IMG/VR virus record: IMGVR_UViG_3300036841_000118
Span: 1-37,287 of that record
DNA from: a virus
Strand: one strand, 5' to 3'
DNA length: 37,287 nt
Below the pieces are notes generated by a model. It worked only from the letters and a program-made list of their open reading frames with translations, made no database searches and was not told the DNA's origin. Positions within the stretch are counted from its first letter, which is position 1, and each line of letters starts with the position of its first letter. The translations under genes and the position numbers were made by a program. Below are positions 29,551 to 37,121 of the stretch, piece after piece.

Positions 29551-29757
29551 TCACGACCGCACCGCCTGTTCGACGCGGTCCCTGACGCGGGCCCAGACGC
29601 GGTCCCCGACGCGGGCCCTGACGCGGGCCCTGACGCGGGCCCAGACGCGGTCCCAGACGCGGGCCCAGACGCGGGCCCAGACGCGGTCCCCGACGCGGTC
29701 CCCGACGCGGGCCCCGACGCGGGCCCCGACGCGGGCCCCGACGCTATCGAGCCGCAT
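29551..29757 (-). CDS. Tetrapeptide-repeat protein ([AD]RV[GWR]), 68 aa
   Basis: After MRLDSV the protein is almost entirely repeats of Ala/Asp-Arg-Val-Gly/Trp/Arg (for example ARVGDRVGDRVWARVW), then ends EQAVRS. The ATG at 29757 lies five bases after the DUF6745-like stop (a GTG at 29760 is equally possible). The same style of repeat ([AD][QS]V[WG]) is, from family knowledge, normally embedded in cellular DUF6745 proteins; here it is a separate downstream gene. The plus-strand frame is also open (PDAG/PDAV repeats), so coding on the minus strand rests on position and family resemblance. Confidence 0.55.
   Translation of the reverse strand: MRLDSVGARVGARVGARVGDRVGDRVWARVWARVWDRVWARVRARVRARVGDRVWARVRDRVEQAVRS
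29572..29739. repeat. Tandem array of 14 twelve-base units
   Basis: Unit GACGCGGKCCCN: fourteen consecutive exact-length copies. Variation is confined to base 8 (G in nine copies, T in five) and base 12 (A, C or T). A fifteenth unit decays at 29740. The array encodes the tetrapeptide repeat above. Confidence 0.9.
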
Positions 29758-29762
29758 CACGA

Positions 29763-30653
29763 CTACGCCTCGACGCCATAGGTCAGCGACGGATCGCTCT
29801 CGCACTGCGCGGGCGCGAGCGTCGTTGCCTGCCACTTACGCGCGGCTTGCGCCGTCTTAAGATCCTCGTGTACCGGCTCGAAGTACACCGGCTGCTTGCC
29901 TCCCTTGAGCTTCGGCGACTGCTTGCGGAGCAGCTTCGATCCGTCACTGCACGCGAGCAGTTCATAGTCGAGCTTCGTCTCCGGGTCGGTCCACGCGTCG
30001 ATCGGCGTCGCGCCGAGCAGGTCAGCGACCCAGCCCCACCCGGCGATCTCTCCGAGCGCGCGCCGGTGCTCCGTGTTCGTGATCGCGAGGTATTCGTCGC
30101 GCGTGAACGACTTTGGCTCGCGGATGATCCGCTCCGGCACCCACGTGCCGTGGTAAGCGAAGTCCTTCTCACCGTCGGACCATTCGATGCACGGCCCGTC
30201 GGTCGCGTGCAGGTTCCCCGAATCGTCTACCCTCAGCAGCGTCGGGCGGCGAATGACGATCGCGCACTCGTCGAGCAGAACGGTGTCCCACGCGACGCGC
30301 CCGAACTCCTTGAGCTTCAGCACATCTTCGATCTCTTCGTCCGTCGCCTGGCCGATGCGGTGAAACAGGTCGTAGAACGAGACCCACCCGCCCTCCCCGA
30401 TGCCGCACCAGTCGAGGTACGTCTGCTGCTTGCCGGTCAGCTCTGACGCGAGCTTCAGCGCTGCGACCGGCGAGGCCGAGACCTCGACCCGATCGGGGCG
30501 TTTCCGGTCGTACAGCTTATACACGACGTCCAGCCACGCGTTGATCGCCTTCATGTCCGGCGCGCGGGCGACGGTAAGGTCGCGGATGTATTCGTCCGCG
30601 ACCTTGTCCAGCAGCTTTTCCTGTGCAGGGGTCAAAGTGTCGAGCATCGCCAT
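29763..30653 (-). CDS. DUF6745-like protein, 296 aa
   Basis: Features in order: helical start LTPAQEKLLDKVADEY; VSFYDLFHRIGQ (about 91-102), like the SFYDFF motif; AIVIRRPTLLRVDDSGNLHA then GPCIEWSDGEKDFAYHGTWV, the ERPTxxxxDxxGRLHxxDGPAxxxxDGxxxYxxHGxxVP core of DUF6745; YLAITNTEHRRALGEIAGWG (NxExRR). Members are of unknown function, widespread in bacteria and phages. The usual [DA]xV[WG] repeat array is missing from its N-terminal half. It has a strong AGGAGG ribosome site and is preceded by the HxH protein and an operator-controlled promoter. Confidence 0.72.
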   Translation of the reverse strand: MAMLDTLTPAQEKLLDKVADEYIRDLTVARAPDMKAINAWLDVVYKLYDRKRPDRVEVSASPVAALKLASELTGKQQTYLDWCGIGEGGWVSFYDLFHRIGQATDEEIEDVLKLKEFGRVAWDTVLLDECAIVIRRPTLLRVDDSGNLHATDGPCIEWSDGEKDFAYHGTWVPERIIREPKSFTRDEYLAITNTEHRRALGEIAGWGWVADLLGATPIDAWTDPETKLDYELLACSDGSKLLRKQSPKLKGGKQPVYFEPVHEDLKTAQAARKWQATTLAPAQCESDPSLTYGVEA

Positions 30654-31051: not shown

Positions 31052-31297
31052 TCAGGCCGCGCGTTCGAACGTCACCGCCGGCATGCTTTTCCACGCGGCT
31101 CGGGCCTTTTCGGCGCACTTCCCGTCGCTGGCGCACTGGCTTCCGCCCTCGAACTTCATACCCGCCTCTTTCTCGACTTGGGCGAGCGCGTACCGAAGCG
31201 CGCAAAGCCAGCAACAGCCGTGCCCGCGCAGCCAGAAGCGTAGCTCGTGCAGCCGCGACAGCCGGTGGACTTCGATTTGATCGGGTCGCGCGCTCAT
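31052..31297 (-). CDS. Cys-rich hypothetical protein, 81 aa
   Basis: MSARPDQIEVHRLSRLHELR, then RGHGCCWLCALRYALAQ with CxxC pattern (28, 29, 32) and two later Cys (about 55, 61) suggest a zinc site. ATG 31297 overlaps the stop of the DnaA-like gene (ATGA). Its stop precedes promoter D, so it ends the replication operon. No family recognised. Confidence 0.6.
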   Translation of the reverse strand: MSARPDQIEVHRLSRLHELRFWLRGHGCCWLCALRYALAQVEKEAGMKFEGGSQCASDGKCAEKARAAWKSMPAVTFERAA

Positions 31298-31644
31298 GCC
31301 GCGTTGTCCTTGCAGACGTGATCGCCGCCGGGGCAGTACGCGCGACGGGCTACGCGTTCCGGGCCGCGCCGGATCAGGCCGAGCAGGTTCATCACGGTCG
31401 TGTGGTCTCGGCCTCCCAGCGCGTTCCCGATCTCCGGCAGCGACAGCCGCCACGGCTCGGCGCGCAGCTCCGCGGCGATCCGCGCCCGGGCGTCGACGTA
31501 GACCCGGTGCCGCTTCGGACCGTATACGTCGGCCGGTGCGAAGCCGAGCTCTCGCGATCGCTTCGCCACGTACGCCCGCGCGCTTGCCGCTGATGCTGCG
31601 CGCTGCTGGACGTCGGGTCGCACGGCTGGCCACATCGCGAACAT
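31294..31644 (-). CDS. DnaA domain IV-like DNA-binding protein, 116 aa
   Basis: Residues about 45-90 match the DnaA C-terminal domain: helix VYVDARARIAAELRAEPWRL, LSLPEIGNALGGRDHTTVMN. The block GGRDHTTV (77-84) is the DnaA signature that reads DnaA boxes. No AAA+ ATPase domain is present (DnaA is about 450 aa), so this is a free-standing DNA-binding domain with an extra N-terminal helix and a Cys/His tail (YCPGGDHVC). Coupled to the helicase (TGATG). Probable replication initiator or host DnaA competitor/regulator. Confidence 0.85.
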   Translation of the reverse strand: MFAMWPAVRPDVQQRAASAASARAYVAKRSRELGFAPADVYGPKRHRVYVDARARIAAELRAEPWRLSLPEIGNALGGRDHTTVMNLLGLIRRGPERVARRAYCPGGDHVCKDNAA

Positions 31645-33344
31645 CAGTAGATCCCGATCTCGTCGCCCGGCTCGCGGCGCGACAGCTCTGCGATCCGCTC
31701 GGGCGGCAACGGCTTGCGGCCGTTCAGGATGATCTCGCGCTGGATCCGCTTCGCGATTTCGCCCGACATGTTCCACGCGTCGACGCCGAACCACTGCAGC
31801 CAGTGCACGCCTCCCAGCTGGCAAAGGCCGCGTCGCTCGCGGTCGCGGTTCTTGCCGAGCAGTCGCTTGAACTGCGCGCCGGTGCAGTTCTGCGGTATCG
31901 GAATGCCGAGCTTCTTCAGCAGCCCGATCTGCTTCGGCGTCGCCATGTCCTCCGGCCGGACCATCTTGTACGGCCCGTTCATGTGCGCCACGCCCGCCAG
32001 CTCGAAGATGCTGCGCACGCGGCCTTTGCGGCTCTTCGCGCGCCGGGCGACGAATCCGGCGCGCATCGCTCGTTCGCGTTCCTCGAGCTGCGCTTGCGCC
32101 TTCGAGATCGCCGCATCAACGCCGCCGCCCTCTTCCTCCAAGATCTTCTTCGCGGCCTTCCGAACCTCGTCGGGCAGCTTGCCGGCGAGCACGTCCAGCG
32201 GACCGATCACGCTGTGCCGCTCGCCGTTGCACACCAGGTCGTACCAGAGCGCCTTCGGCTTCGGGCTGGCCGCGATCGCCGCCACGCGCGCCTCGACTGT
32301 CTCCAGCGTGTCGATGCCCTCCGGCCAGAGGCGTGTCGCGCGTCCCAGGCGCTGCATCACGCGCAGGCGCGAACAGGACGGCGCCGTATCAACGATGCCG
32401 TCGAGGGTCGGATCGTCGTGCCCCTCCGTGTAGATGTTGCAGTTGACGAGCTTCGAGATCTCGCCGGCTCGATGCTGCTGCTCGACGCGGCGCTTGTACT
32501 CGTCGTCCATCGTGCCGTCGACGGACGCCGCGTGCCCGGGCACCAGATCATTCATCGCGGCGGACAGCGCGTGCGCCGTCTTCACGCCCGGGGTGAACAC
32601 GATGAGTCGCTTGTCGCGCGCGTGGTCGATGATCGCGCGCGCGAGCCGTCCCGCCTCGGTCGCCACCGCGTCGTCGAGCTGCGAAGGGTCCAGGTCGCCG
32701 CCGCGCTTGTCGATGCTGTCCAGGTTCACCTCGGACTCGAGCGGGATATACTCGACCGGGGTCAGCCACGCGTCCTGAGTCGCCGGGATCAGCTCGTAGC
32801 GGTGGGCGACGGAATCGTAGACCGACCCCATCGCCACTTCGTCCGACCGGTCCGGCGTCGCCGTCACGCCCAGCAGCTTTGCGTGCGGGAACGCCTCGTA
32901 GATCTTCCGGTAGCTCGCCGCGGGCGACCGGTGCGCTTCGTCCGTGATGATGAAGTTGATGACGTCGCGGAACCGGTCGGCGAACTTCTTGAGCCGTTCG
33001 CCCTTCAGCGTCTGGACGCTGCCGACGACGTACGGCGAGCCGAACGCGGTCCGCTCCGCTTTCTCGATCGCGACGGACATGCCGGTCGCCAGCGACAGCT
33101 TTTCGCATGCCTGCCGCGCCAGCGTGTCCCGGTGCACGAGCACCAGGCCGTTGCCGCGCTTCTTCGCCTGCATGCAGAACAGGACCGTCTTGCCGAGCCC
33201 CGTCGCCTGCACGACCAGCGTGGACCGGTGCGCAGCAAGCTCGCGGTCGATCGCCGCGTCCGCTTCGACCTGATACGAGCGCGGCATGAACGCGCCGGCC
33301 CGAACCGGTTTGTCGAAAAAGCCGAGCTGGGACGCGACGGTCAT
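31644..33344 (-). CDS. SF2 DNA/RNA helicase, 566 aa
   Basis: Superfamily 2 helicase core: Q-like SYQVEAD, motif I ATGLGKT (47-53), motif II DEAH (135-138), motif III TATP (161-164), motif VI QRLGRATR (331-338). After the core, a charged coiled stretch (about 395-440) and a C-terminal 120 residues containing PKQIGLLKKLGIP and QFKRLLGKNRDRERRGLCQL. Most similar to phage replication helicases of the UvsW/RecG-like SF2 type. It overlaps the Mom-like gene (ATGA). Expected to work with the DnaA-like protein in replication. Confidence 0.85.
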   Translation of the reverse strand: MTVASQLGFFDKPVRAGAFMPRSYQVEADAAIDRELAAHRSTLVVQATGLGKTVLFCMQAKKRGNGLVLVHRDTLARQACEKLSLATGMSVAIEKAERTAFGSPYVVGSVQTLKGERLKKFADRFRDVINFIITDEAHRSPAASYRKIYEAFPHAKLLGVTATPDRSDEVAMGSVYDSVAHRYELIPATQDAWLTPVEYIPLESEVNLDSIDKRGGDLDPSQLDDAVATEAGRLARAIIDHARDKRLIVFTPGVKTAHALSAAMNDLVPGHAASVDGTMDDEYKRRVEQQHRAGEISKLVNCNIYTEGHDDPTLDGIVDTAPSCSRLRVMQRLGRATRLWPEGIDTLETVEARVAAIAASPKPKALWYDLVCNGERHSVIGPLDVLAGKLPDEVRKAAKKILEEEGGGVDAAISKAQAQLEERERAMRAGFVARRAKSRKGRVRSIFELAGVAHMNGPYKMVRPEDMATPKQIGLLKKLGIPIPQNCTGAQFKRLLGKNRDRERRGLCQLGGVHWLQWFGVDAWNMSGEIAKRIQREIILNGRKPLPPERIAELSRREPGDEIGIY

Positions 33345-33775
33345 GGCGCCTCGAACACCAGCAGGTCGCCCTTCGCACTAGGTCCGACGCACCGCCAGCC
33401 GGCACGCAGGAAGCAACGGCCCGGATCGCGCTTGCGCCGAACCGCCGCCGGATCGACTTCGGTCCGCAGAGCGCAACGCGTTCCGTGGCGGGTGCGCCAG
33501 TACGCGCGCGTGAGCCGCGTTGCTCGCCGGATCAGCAGAGACGACAGGCGCGCGCCGGTGTTGCGGAAGATCGAGACGCGCCAGTACGTCCGGCCATTGA
33601 AGACGTTCTCCACGGCGCCCCACACCGCGCGCGAGTCGGACGACAGCAGCACGAACGTCTTCCCCGGCGGCATGAACTCACGCGCTCCCGGCGTCTGCCG
33701 GGAGTAGTGCGGGTCGGCGAGCAACCGCGCGCGGCGGTCGCATCGCTTGACCTGCTGCCAGGGGGGGGCCTTCAC
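33341..33775 (-). CDS. Mom-like DNA adenine-modification acyltransferase, 144 aa
   Basis: From GTG 33775 the product begins MKAPPWQQVKRCDRRARLLA. The block DPHYSRQTPGAREFMPPGKT (21-40), then FVLLSSDSRAVWG, WRVSIFRNTGARLSSLLI, TEVDP (106-109) and RRKRDPGRCFLRAGWR (113-128) is the pattern I know from Mom-type GNAT-fold proteins. Mu Mom modifies adenines to resist restriction; its key His-Tyr pair corresponds to H23-Y24 here. No com-like regulator is seen. Length is shorter than Mu Mom (about 230 aa). Confidence in the family is moderate. Confidence 0.65.
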   Translation of the reverse strand: MKAPPWQQVKRCDRRARLLADPHYSRQTPGAREFMPPGKTFVLLSSDSRAVWGAVENVFNGRTYWRVSIFRNTGARLSSLLIRRATRLTRAYWRTRHGTRCALRTEVDPAAVRRKRDPGRCFLRAGWRCVGPSAKGDLLVFEAP

Positions 33776-33776
33776 G

Positions 33777-34067
33777 TCAGTCCCGCAGTTCGAGTCGACC
33801 GATCGACGCTGCGATCTCCCGCTGCAACCCTTCGCGGTGTTCCGGCCCGCCATCAAGCTCGTAGCGAATGGCATCGATCGCGACGTGTGCGGCGATCAGC
33901 TTGGCGCGCCGCTCTGCCTTCGACGGGCGACTCATCGGCTCGATCGCTTGCTTGCAGGCGTTGATCGCCGCGTCCGACATCGGCACCGGCGGGGGCGCTA
34001 GCACCTGACCGACCTGCGCCATGGGCACTTCTGCCGCCTCGTTCTTCAGTCGCTTCGCTCGCTTCAT
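33777..34067 (-). CDS. Hypothetical protein, 96 aa
   Basis: MKRAKRLKNEAAEVPMAQVG: basic N-terminus, a Pro-rich linker (VLAPPPVP), and a long helix pair (SKAERRAKLIAAHVAIDAIR; HREGLQREIAASIGRLELRD). Coupled by ATGA to the ParB-like gene (34067). No family. Confidence 0.6.
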   Translation of the reverse strand: MKRAKRLKNEAAEVPMAQVGQVLAPPPVPMSDAAINACKQAIEPMSRPSKAERRAKLIAAHVAIDAIRYELDGGPEHREGLQREIAASIGRLELRD

Positions 34068-35215
34068 GGGTCGCTCCTCTCCTCTTCGGCCATCTCTTCC
34101 AGCTCGTCCGCCAGCTCGCGCTCCTCTTCGGCCATCGCGGCGCCGAGCAGATCGTTCCCGTCCGAGTCAACGACGCGGATCGATTTCCCCGCGCCGCCGT
34201 TCTTCGGCAGCTTCCCTGCAAGTGCGTCCGCGTACGGCATCGGCTTGCCGTGGTACGCGACGATCGGCGGGTCCGCCTCCAGCAGCTTCGCGTCTGCGCG
34301 CGCGGCGACCTCGGCCGATACGTAGAACTGCCCGTTGCAGCCGCCGCAAATCCCGAACGTCGCTTTCGGCAGGCCCTTGCACCATGGGCAGATGAACTCG
34401 GGCCGCTTCGACCTGACCAGCGACCCGACGCGTTCCACCTGCGCGCGCAGCTCCTGGCCCAGCGCGGACTGCTCGATCTTCTTCAGCGCGCCGAGCGCGA
34501 GGCGCAGGTGCTTGTCCGCTTCGTCTATCGCCTCCTGGTACGGCTTCGCGAACTTGCAGACGGCGCGCGTCGAGTCGTCATCGCAGCCGAGCAGGTTCAG
34601 GTTCGGTTCGAAAAACGCCGGCTCCACCGCGACAGCGGCCGTCACGCTGGGAGTAGGGCATGCACTACCCTCCGCGGCAGATTCTTTCGCGGCGGCGCGG
34701 GCGCGTTTTTCGGCCTGCTTGATGGCCGTCGGCGTCGTGCCGTGATCGCGCGCGACGAGCTTGCGAGCTTCCGCCTTGATCGTCTGTTTCGACGGCGCCG
34801 TCGTCGCCGGCATGACGCGGTGGGAGGGTGGTACATTTGTACCCACTTTGGCCCTCGCGCTGAGCAGCGCTTCCTTCGCCCGGACGGCGCGTGCGATGAC
34901 TTCGTCGCGGTCGTCCAGCCGTCGGTGAATGTTCTCGGACGCTTCGAGATCGGCCGCCTCTTCGTCGCTGCACTCCGCAAGGCGCACCCACAGCCGCTTC
35001 GCCTTCAGTACGAGCAGCGCGGCCATCCGATCGCGTCCGCAGAGCAGCCGGTAGCCGGGCATGCGCACCGTCGGCGCGTGGATCGGCTCGTCGCCGTGCT
35101 CGCGGATGTTCGCGGCCAGGTCCGCGACGTGGGCGGCCTTGGACCGCGCGCGGACGTCCGCGACGTCCATGCTGACCGATGTGAATGCGATCTGCTTGTA
35201 CCCGAGCCACTTCAT
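34064..35215 (-). CDS. ParB-like protein with zinc ribbon, 383 aa
   Basis: Residues about 20-95 form the ParB/sulfiredoxin fold: VRMPGYRLLCGRDRMAALLV (GxRxxxGxxRxxA) and ADLEASENIHRR (ENxHRR). A helical DNA-binding-like middle contains repeated Ala/Lys helices. A CxxC-x-CxxC zinc ribbon (ICPWCKGLPKATFGICGGCN) lies at about 275-294, and the tail is very acidic (EEERELADELEEMAEEERSD). ATG 35215 has a GAGAGG site. ParB proteins use CTP to spread from parS; phage versions can act in partition, regulation or nicking. A palindrome inside the gene (34827-34850) recurs at 17042. Confidence 0.75.
   Translation of the reverse strand: MKWLGYKQIAFTSVSMDVADVRARSKAAHVADLAANIREHGDEPIHAPTVRMPGYRLLCGRDRMAALLVLKAKRLWVRLAECSDEEAADLEASENIHRRLDDRDEVIARAVRAKEALLSARAKVGTNVPPSHRVMPATTAPSKQTIKAEARKLVARDHGTTPTAIKQAEKRARAAAKESAAEGSACPTPSVTAAVAVEPAFFEPNLNLLGCDDDSTRAVCKFAKPYQEAIDEADKHLRLALGALKKIEQSALGQELRAQVERVGSLVRSKRPEFICPWCKGLPKATFGICGGCNGQFYVSAEVAARADAKLLEADPPIVAYHGKPMPYADALAGKLPKNGGAGKSIRVVDSDGNDLLGAAMAEEERELADELEEMAEEERSDP
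34827..34850. repeat. 24-bp palindromic repeat, copy 2, inside ParB-like gene
   Basis: GGTGGTACATTT...CCCACTTTG with symmetric arms GGTACA/TGTACC. Encodes KVGTNVPP in the ParB-like frame; 20 of 24 bases agree with 17042-17065. Confidence 0.55.
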
Positions 35216-35275
35216 GCGACACCTCTCGCTTTCGCTTCCGCGCGGATGAACGCGCGGCACTTCTCGCACGCAGGT

Positions 35276-35407
35276 TCACAGCCCGTACCCCGACGCCACG
35301 CCCGCGATGACCAGCGCCACGGTCCCGATCAGCACGACGTACGCCAGCGCCGCGCCGATGAAGCGCAGCGCCGCCAGCGCCGCGCCGATGAAGCGCAGCG
35401 CCGTCAC
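35276..35407 (-). CDS. Small membrane protein with internal duplication, 43 aa
   Basis: GTG 35407 overlaps the HNH gene's TGA. Product MTALRFIGAALAALRFIGAA continues into LAYVVLIGTVALVIAGVASG: one or two membrane segments. ALRFIGAALA occurs twice because a 30-bp unit is perfectly duplicated (35342-35371, 35372-35401). Function unknown. Confidence 0.55.
   Translation of the reverse strand: MTALRFIGAALAALRFIGAALAYVVLIGTVALVIAGVASGYGL
35342..35401. repeat. Perfect tandem duplication of 30 bp
   Basis: Two identical 30-base units (CGCCAGCGCCGCGCCGATGA plus 10 bases) in tandem within the 43-aa membrane protein gene. Confidence 0.95.
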
Positions 35408-35958
35408 GCCGCCGCCTTTGCCAGTGCCGTGCGCACCGGCACGGCGAACATCTGCATCACGCGCTGAAGCGCCTGACGGCCGGTCAGCCCCGACGGCAGG
35501 CGCGGTGCGCGGCGGCGCTCGAGATAGCGCCGGTGGTTCTCGATGCGCGTGACGTACTCGAGGTTCGTGACCGCGTTGTTCCGCTTGTCTTCATCCAGAT
35601 GATCGACGGTCTGGCCAGCCGGGCGCGGGCCGATGAACGCCGCCGCGACCAGCAGGTGGACGCGGTGGAACCGACGACGGCCGCCCGCGCCGTAGAGCTG
35701 CGCGCGCAAGTAGCCGCGCCAGTGGCGATCGAGCTTGAGGCAGCGCCGGCGGCCCGCGCGGCGGACACGGCCGCGATTGCTCACCTCGTAGAGCCCCTCA
35801 TAGCCAGCGATCGGCCGCCACTCTTCTGACGACTGTGCCGTTTCGAGCACGCCCGTCGCGGCGAGGTGCCCGACGACGCTGATCAGCTTCCGATCTTGCC
35901 CCGCGTCCGGCGCGGGGCTCGCGCCGGTTTTCGCTGATTTCGGAAAGAAATCACGCAT
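35404..35958 (-). CDS. NUMOD4/HNH endonuclease, 184 aa
   Basis: NUMOD4 motif EEWRPIAGYEGLYEVSNRGR (about 45-64), then an HNH nuclease: FHRVHLLVAAAFIGPRPAGQ, TVDHLDEDKRNNAVTNLEYV (His, Asn, His/Asn ligands) at about 98-137. These are site-specific homing-type or genome-processing nucleases. ATG 35958 has a strong GGAGGAC site. First gene after the integrase on this strand. No interrupted gene is visible, so it is free-standing. Confidence 0.85.
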   Translation of the reverse strand: MRDFFPKSAKTGASPAPDAGQDRKLISVVGHLAATGVLETAQSSEEWRPIAGYEGLYEVSNRGRVRRAGRRRCLKLDRHWRGYLRAQLYGAGGRRRFHRVHLLVAAAFIGPRPAGQTVDHLDEDKRNNAVTNLEYVTRIENHRRYLERRRAPRLPSGLTGRQALQRVMQMFAVPVRTALAKAAA

Positions 35959-36080: not shown

Positions 36081-37121
36081 TCACGAGATCGTTTGTACGC
36101 GCCTCGCGGTCGCGCTTGCAATTTCTTTTTTCGTGGGTAGCGAATTATGCCACGCAGCGCGGCGCGGACCGCGGCGCCCCGACATGATCGCCGCCATCCG
36201 CAGCGCGGCGTCCTGCTCCGTTCGGTGCAGGTACTTCATCGTCGTCGACAGGTGAGCGTGTCCGAGCATCGCCTGAATCCACTGCGCGGGCGCGCCGCGC
36301 TCGTCGGCGATCGAGGCGGCCGAGTGGCGAAGGTTGTGCGGCACGAGCGCCAGATCGCCGTCCACCTTGACGCCCTCGAGCCCCGCGGCGGCGACCGCGG
36401 CGCGGAACCACGCGCGCACCGTCGACGCGTTGAACACGCGCCCCGTGTGGTAGTTCACGAACACGTGCGGGTTCGCGTGCCTCTCCATCTCGGCGAGTGC
36501 GCCCAGCGTCCGCGGCGTGAAGGCGACGACGCGCGTCTTGTGGCCCTTGCCGATCACGCTGGTCGTCCCGCGCAACGTGATGCGGTCCCAGCGCAGGCCG
36601 AGCGCTTCGGAGATGCGTAGGCCGGTGTCGCCCATCGCGGCGGCGAGCGCCCGGAACGCGCGCTGCTGGTGATCCCAGCGCAGCGAATCGGCGGCGGCGA
36701 TCAGCGCGTTCACCTGCTCAGCTGTGAACCACGACTCGCGGCGCTCGCGCGTCTTGACTGGCTTGCAATCGATGAGCGGCCGCTCGTCGATCAGCTTCTT
36801 GCCGACCGCCCACCGGAACATGCGCTTCGTGCGCGCGAGCTCGAGGTTGATCGTCAGGTCGCACGGCGGGCGCCCGGTCCGCGTCGTCGCGCGCCCGCGC
36901 TTCGCCCGGTGGTCCTCCCAGTCGCGCGGCCTGATCGACTTCGCGGGTCGGCGCCAGAAGCGCACCACGAACGGCCGCAACAGGTTTCGCTCGAGCTGCC
37001 ACACGCGCCCGCGCGGGCGCGTCTCCCGATACCTCATGTACAACATCCCCACGCTGACGCTGACGTCCGGAGTCACCCCGACAGCAGCAGCGATCCTCTC
37101 CAGTAGCGCCCGATCGTCCAC
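36081..37121 (-). CDS. int: Tyrosine-type integrase, 346 aa
   Basis: Catalytic set complete: Arg in MGDTGLRISEALGLRWDRI (R169), Lys in IGKGHKTRVV (about 192-195), HNLRH (H262, R265), LGHAHLSTTMKYLH (H288, nucleophile Y297). N-terminal residues 27-120 form the SAM-like core-binding domain (ALLERIAAAVGV arm; RMFRWAVGKK). Site-specific integration and excision are expected, so the phage is temperate. The start ATG 37121 lies in the terminal repeat, so the left copy keeps only the first 26 codons. Its 3' end overlaps an inverted repeat. Confidence 0.93.
   Translation of the reverse strand: MDDRALLERIAAAVGVTPDVSVSVGMLYMRYRETRPRGRVWQLERNLLRPFVVRFWRRPAKSIRPRDWEDHRAKRGRATTRTGRPPCDLTINLELARTKRMFRWAVGKKLIDERPLIDCKPVKTRERRESWFTAEQVNALIAAADSLRWDHQQRAFRALAAAMGDTGLRISEALGLRWDRITLRGTTSVIGKGHKTRVVAFTPRTLGALAEMERHANPHVFVNYHTGRVFNASTVRAWFRAAVAAAGLEGVKVDGDLALVPHNLRHSAASIADERGAPAQWIQAMLGHAHLSTTMKYLHRTEQDAALRMAAIMSGRRGPRRAAWHNSLPTKKEIASATARRVQTIS

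Follow-up and report, generated by a model that had tools for sequence, protein, structure and literature searches.

Organization of the locus

The window, by which we mean the whole stretch of 37,287 bases that was analysed, is an IMG/VR virus record. It carries an integrase gene at 36081-37121, and for this reason the phage is probably temperate. The gene of interest belongs to an operon on the minus strand with the following members.

34064..35269, minus strand: ParB-like protein, 401 aa (PHROG ParB-like, E 2.3e-5)
33777..34067, minus strand: ORF96, without family match
33341..33775, minus strand: compact Mom/DruA-like protein with a predicted GNAT fold, 144 aa, GTG start at 33775, stop TGA at 33343-33341
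31644..33344, minus strand: SF2 helicase (ResIII/RadD-like), 566 aa (Pfam ResIII, E 4.6e-23; PHROG DNA helicase, E 1.2e-60)

The 144-residue ORF that the initial annotation had reported at 33341-33775 was recovered at exactly these coordinates, but its coding strand is the minus strand, and the plus-strand translation of the same interval is an unrelated reading. The gene had also been placed between a ParB-like operon and the helicase. This order holds, with ORF96 (96 aa, unknown) intervening. The ParB-like assignment was additionally recovered with NCBIfam Noc/ParB (E 8e-4), while Pfam ParB_N gave only E 0.17. The operon runs ParB-like–ORF96–GNAT–helicase with overlapping stop and start codons: the ParB-like stop and the ORF96 start overlap in ATGA, the ORF96 stop lies one base ahead of the GTG of the GNAT gene, and the TGA of the GNAT gene overlaps the helicase ATG, again as ATGA. 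Because stop and start codons overlap in this way, the arrangement suggests that the GNAT gene is translationally coupled, which would be the most likely route to its synthesis within this operon. Its third-position GC (0.855) is similar to that of its neighbours. A longer reading from an ATG at 33874 (177 aa) was considered and rejected, as the starts of most relatives lie a few residues at most from the conserved W6, the extension runs into ORF96, and the codon-position GC pattern of the extension is mismatched.

Several further features were observed around the operon. Directly after the helicase, at 31294-31824, lies a gene whose product contains the helix-turn-helix domain of the DnaA C-terminus (Pfam E 5e-10), and at 29763-30653 a phage protein with DUF6745 (Pfam E 3.5e-10). 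The ORF at 29551-29835 is a low-complexity tandem repeat whose short units are of the VGARVGARVWARV type, which reads GPDAGPDAVPDA on the opposite strand. Upstream of the ParB-like gene, at 35290-35420, a GGCGCTGCGCTTCATCGGCGCGGCGCTGGCG-type unit occurs in tandem copies.

The protein belongs to an unnamed phage family

The direct family of the 144-residue protein is phrog_24928, listed as of unknown function, which it matched with an E-value of 4.5e-31 over residues 5-141, nearly its full length. Pfam, NCBIfam and PADLOC models gave no match to the protein, and phmmer and hmmsearch comparisons with the PDB returned nothing. A scan of viral contigs with the window protein as single query found no relative, but an alignment-based scan did. 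By this profile-guided approach 317 relatives were confirmed in viral contigs, 80 of which were kept, and a further 28 were found in the genomes of bacteria, among them Elusimicrobia, Polyangia, Alphaproteobacteria and Paenibacillus. The family also occurs in cultured phages, namely Salinibacter phages M8CR30-2 and -4, Paenibacillus phage Lily and Micromonospora phage pMLP1; annotations of the gene, if given, read "hypothetical". Several hundred phage contigs thus carry this family without a name. Aligned members measure 141-194 aa with a median of 164, so that the 144 residues of the window protein are at the short end but normal, and members of the 74-sequence alignment are 36-60% identical to it.

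Predicted fold

AlphaFold modelling from the 74-sequence alignment gave a GNAT fold with a pLDDT of 92.9 and a pTM of 0.88. Nearly all of the first 50 PDB matches found by Foldseek were GNATs, and VIA-align Z-scores against GNATs (N-terminal acetyltransferases) reached 12.8, with an rmsd of 3.1 over 133 residues. On this model, the GNAT fold of the window protein is near certain. Comparison of the predicted structure with Mu Mom had been proposed as a check, and Mom was indeed among the top matches: entry 8bv8 ranked second in the PDB (E 3.4e-3, probability 1.00). Its Foldseek score was, however, level with that of an aminoglycoside 6'-acetyltransferase, and since ordinary GNATs score equally, the fold alone is not specific to Mom.

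The top structural matches also included N-terminal protein acetyltransferases and AtaT/TacT-type toxins. Such an enzyme might acylate a host protein or RNA during takeover, with RNA polymerase, nucleoid proteins and tRNA as conceivable targets, and leave DNA untouched; a precedent is Rac of phiKMV-like phages, a GNAT that acts on host RNA polymerase (PMC7824862). We consider a host target unlikely, because the nearest sequence family of the window protein is DruA/DUF4338 and then Mom, not the protein or tRNA acetyltransferases, and its relatives are found among replication and DNA methylase genes, one of them joined to a DNA polymerase.

Relation to Mom and to DruA/DUF4338

The gene had been taken for a compact member of the Mom family. 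Membership in the Mom family proper was not borne out: the Mom HMM PF25680 had no match in the whole record even at an E-value of 10, BLASTP of Mu Mom against the window protein produced no alignment, and direct profile-profile comparison of the phrog_24928 family with Mom reached only E 0.05-0.07, a score that 2 of 200 column shuffles of the family also attained. What survives of the Mom-like description is the GNAT fold and a remote kinship with Mom via DruA/DUF4338, from which the protein stands apart as a separate compact branch.

The DUF4338 HMM (PF14236) likewise had no match to the window protein at E-values up to 1. At the level of family profiles, hhalign aligned phrog_24928 with the DUF4338/DruA domain over the C-terminal 54 columns (probability 94.4, E 8.9e-8), and DUF4338 with Mom over 167 columns (probability 96.9, E 1.5e-10), the DUF4338 alignment consisting of seven sequences. 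With gappy columns removed, the DUF4338 score was 57.0; of 200 column shuffles of the family none came up to this value, the highest scoring 21.9. A generic GNAT profile of 30 proteins matched the family with E 5.7e-4, weaker than DUF4338. The alignments place Mom S124, DUF4338 NLAS and S79 of the window protein in register, as they do Mom SFAD, DUF4338 ETFVD and the family's T-F-V-D, and Mom GxxYQAxNF, DUF4338 GTCYRAANW and the family's GxCYxxAGF. In the reverse direction, a PF25680 search of bacterial genomes arrived at DUF4338/DruA-type proteins below threshold (L195, and the G075 site, which was also matched by PF14236). The Mom alignment, with its 14 sequences, diverged too widely to serve in a scan of the collection.

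The family is thus distantly homologous to DruA/DUF4338 and thereby to Mom, with the position of Ser124 conserved. Judged by these profiles, phrog_24928 appears to be a distant relative of Mu Mom and closer to DruA, a bacterial anti-phage defence protein, and the window protein is very probably a member of the Mom/DruA lineage. With Mu Mom (PF25680, phrog_1384, PDB 8bv8) it shares the GNAT fold, a phage-borne gene and an HYS near the N-terminus and, through DUF4338, the Ser124 position and the [ST]FxD and GxxY, then G, elements. It differs in ending at the GNAT core, so that the approximately 75 C-terminal residues of Mu Mom with the invariant Tyr217 are missing. DruA/DUF4338 (PF14236) gives the best profile match, with LxS, TFVD, GxCYxxAGW/ANW and GxTxG in common; the DruA/DUF4338 proteins encountered in this analysis come from bacteria and exceed the window protein in size, and some carry fused transposase-like parts. 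That DUF4338 is a GNAT has been published, as has the fusion of its GNAT domain to DndF (PMC10853773). No paper linking DUF4338 with Mom was found in the literature searched.

Given that the DruA/DUF4338 GNAT domain is the closest detectable sequence relative, that this domain is fused to DndF, and that DruA-like proteins occur in other phages (PMC12774648), the gene might encode a factor of anti-phage defence or counter-defence, for instance one hindering Druantia-like systems or attacking competing phages, and modify no phage DNA. We regard this as very unlikely: PADLOC models matched 0 of 74 family members, and the neighbouring genes are DNA metabolism genes with no defence island.

Conserved residues and deviations of the window copy

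The positions relevant to the comparison with Mom are as follows.

33701..33709, minus strand: HYS motif, residues 23-25, then R26; corresponds to Mu Mom H58-Y59-S60, HYL in DUF4338
33557..33559, minus strand: Thr73 (FRNT; FRNE in relatives), Glu in 93 of 93 other aligned members
33539..33541, minus strand: Ser79, aligned with Mu Mom Ser124 both directly and via DUF4338
33410..33463, minus strand: T-E-V-D ... D-P-G-R-C-F block, residues 105 to 122, from the hhalign alignment and conservation; counterpart of Mom SFAD...GxxY and DUF4338 ETFVD...GTCY

The initial annotation had read HYS, PPGK, RNxGxxLSS and RRKRDPGRCFxRAGW as blocks of the Mom family. All are present and conserved in relatives far beyond chance, but they are not Mu Mom blocks. 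Common to Mu Mom and phrog_24928 are only HY[S], the aligned serine, [ST]-F/Y-x-D, and GxxY, then G, while Mu Mom lacks the family's own PPG, FRNE and KRDPGRC. RNxG..LSS aligns with the acyl-CoA loop region (R/QxxGxG/A) of ordinary GNATs, but the stretch does not conserve the GxG. S79, F70, R71, G119 and G126 are invariant in all 94 sequences. H23, Y24 and R26 are invariant as well, partly as a selection effect, the HYS motif being in the retrieval patterns. Asp108, which aligns with D149 of the Mom SFAD, is present in the window protein and is D in 73 of 94 members; D149 is invariant in Mom. The S124A variant of Mu Mom, deposited as PDB entry 8bv8, is labelled inactive.

Two residues set the window copy apart from its family: P22, a position held by R in all 93 other aligned members, and T73, held by E in the same 93. 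The retrieval pattern inflates the R22 count, and E73 lies outside the retrieval patterns. Because of P22 and T73 the activity of this copy is doubtful, and from its sequence it may be altered or inactive. A reading in which the family works as a modification enzyme but the window copy is in decay or altered in its catalysis seems to us rather improbable, however, for its frame is intact, its third-position GC resembles that of adjacent genes, and its stop codon still overlaps the helicase start.

Genomic neighbours and com

To survey the neighbours of about 90 relatives, Pfam was run on the closest plus-strand ORF to either side. DNA methylases were the commonest identifiable immediate neighbours, upstream in 10 of 91 cases (5 C5, 4 N6/N4, 1 D12) and downstream in 6 of 88 (3 N6/N4, 2 Dam, 1 D12), compared with 4 of 90 among control genes approximately 4.2 kb away. 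The combined count, 16 of 179 at the most, is not significantly enriched over the 4 of 90 (Fisher one-sided p 0.14). In Paenibacillus phage Lily, Dam and Dcm genes lie immediately downstream of the family gene, and one relative has a Lar restriction-alleviation protein as a neighbour. In another (L017:5998-8373) the reading frame continues into a DNA polymerase of family A, for a product of 791 aa; this is either a true fusion or the result of a stop codon lost in assembly. Among the ten window proteins scanned with Pfam there was no methylase.

As a unit, the operon of the window is not conserved, since tblastn found no counterparts of the ParB-like, ORF96 or DnaA C-terminal domain proteins near 103 relatives, and counterparts of the window helicase near only four. 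A ParB-like gene directly beside the family gene was rare, with 1 of 88 downstream and none listed among 91 upstream. A true Mom homologue comes immediately after a ParB-like gene in two other phages, Microbacterium phage MenE and Arthrobacter phage Sicarius2 (L123:1-921, L125:1-864), an order that recalls the ParB-like gene upstream of the window GNAT gene.

The remark that the gene has no com partner was correct, as Com (PF10122) was found nowhere in the window record. Its reading as a departure from the usual control was not upheld. In Mu, mom is found with com at the genome's right end, whereas the window gene is part of a replication-type operon and adjoins a helicase. Among 14 phages with genuine Mom homologues, PF10122 was restricted to Mu and a Mu-like Pseudomonas phage; the other 12 gave no match. 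The lack of com is therefore normal, and 0 of 13 tested carriers of the phrog_24928 family had it. In place of com, the coupling suggested by the overlapping codons may govern translation of the window gene.

Proposed function

Mom converts adenine to N6-(1-acetamido)adenine. By analogy, the window gene product would be a single-domain GNAT-fold acyltransferase of a compact phage branch of the Mom/DruA (DUF4338) lineage, which would use acetyl-CoA or a related donor to acylate a base in phage DNA, possibly adenine N6 as with Mom. DNA modified in this manner would block restriction endonucleases. That the phage modifies its own DNA, as originally proposed, is our best guess, and we hold it by a slight preference. 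The GNAT fold, the DruA/DUF4338 profile match, the invariant S79, the methylase neighbours and the polymerase-joined relative argue for it. Counting against it are the lack of a direct HMM or BLAST match to Mom, the missing Mom C-terminal region, the p-value of the methylase comparison, the tie between Mom and aminoglycoside acetyltransferases in Foldseek, the incomplete conservation of D108, and the missing R22 and E73 in the window copy.

More tentatively, phrog_24928 could possibly be a third branch within a clade of Mom/DruA acyltransferases and hypermodify phage DNA by a chemistry of its own, which would connect the hypermodification of phage DNA with the GNAT domain found in Druantia. 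Such modification might be coupled to replication, in view of the helicase operon and the DNA polymerase fusion. Placement in the Mom/DruA lineage yields a testable prediction for all carriers, namely a new modified base that depends on one serine, and suggests that Mom-like chemistry may extend to DUF4338 in Druantia, Dnd and transposase-type proteins.

Among the bacterial proteins encountered, the DUF4338/DruA GNAT domains of L176, L182 and L195 run into long ORFs with transposase-like C-terminal parts, and L195 was matched by the Mom HMM at E 5e-4. L194 and L196, compact proteins of approximately 150-200 aa from the bacterial phylum searched, matched the Mom HMM below the cut-off and look like another compact branch.
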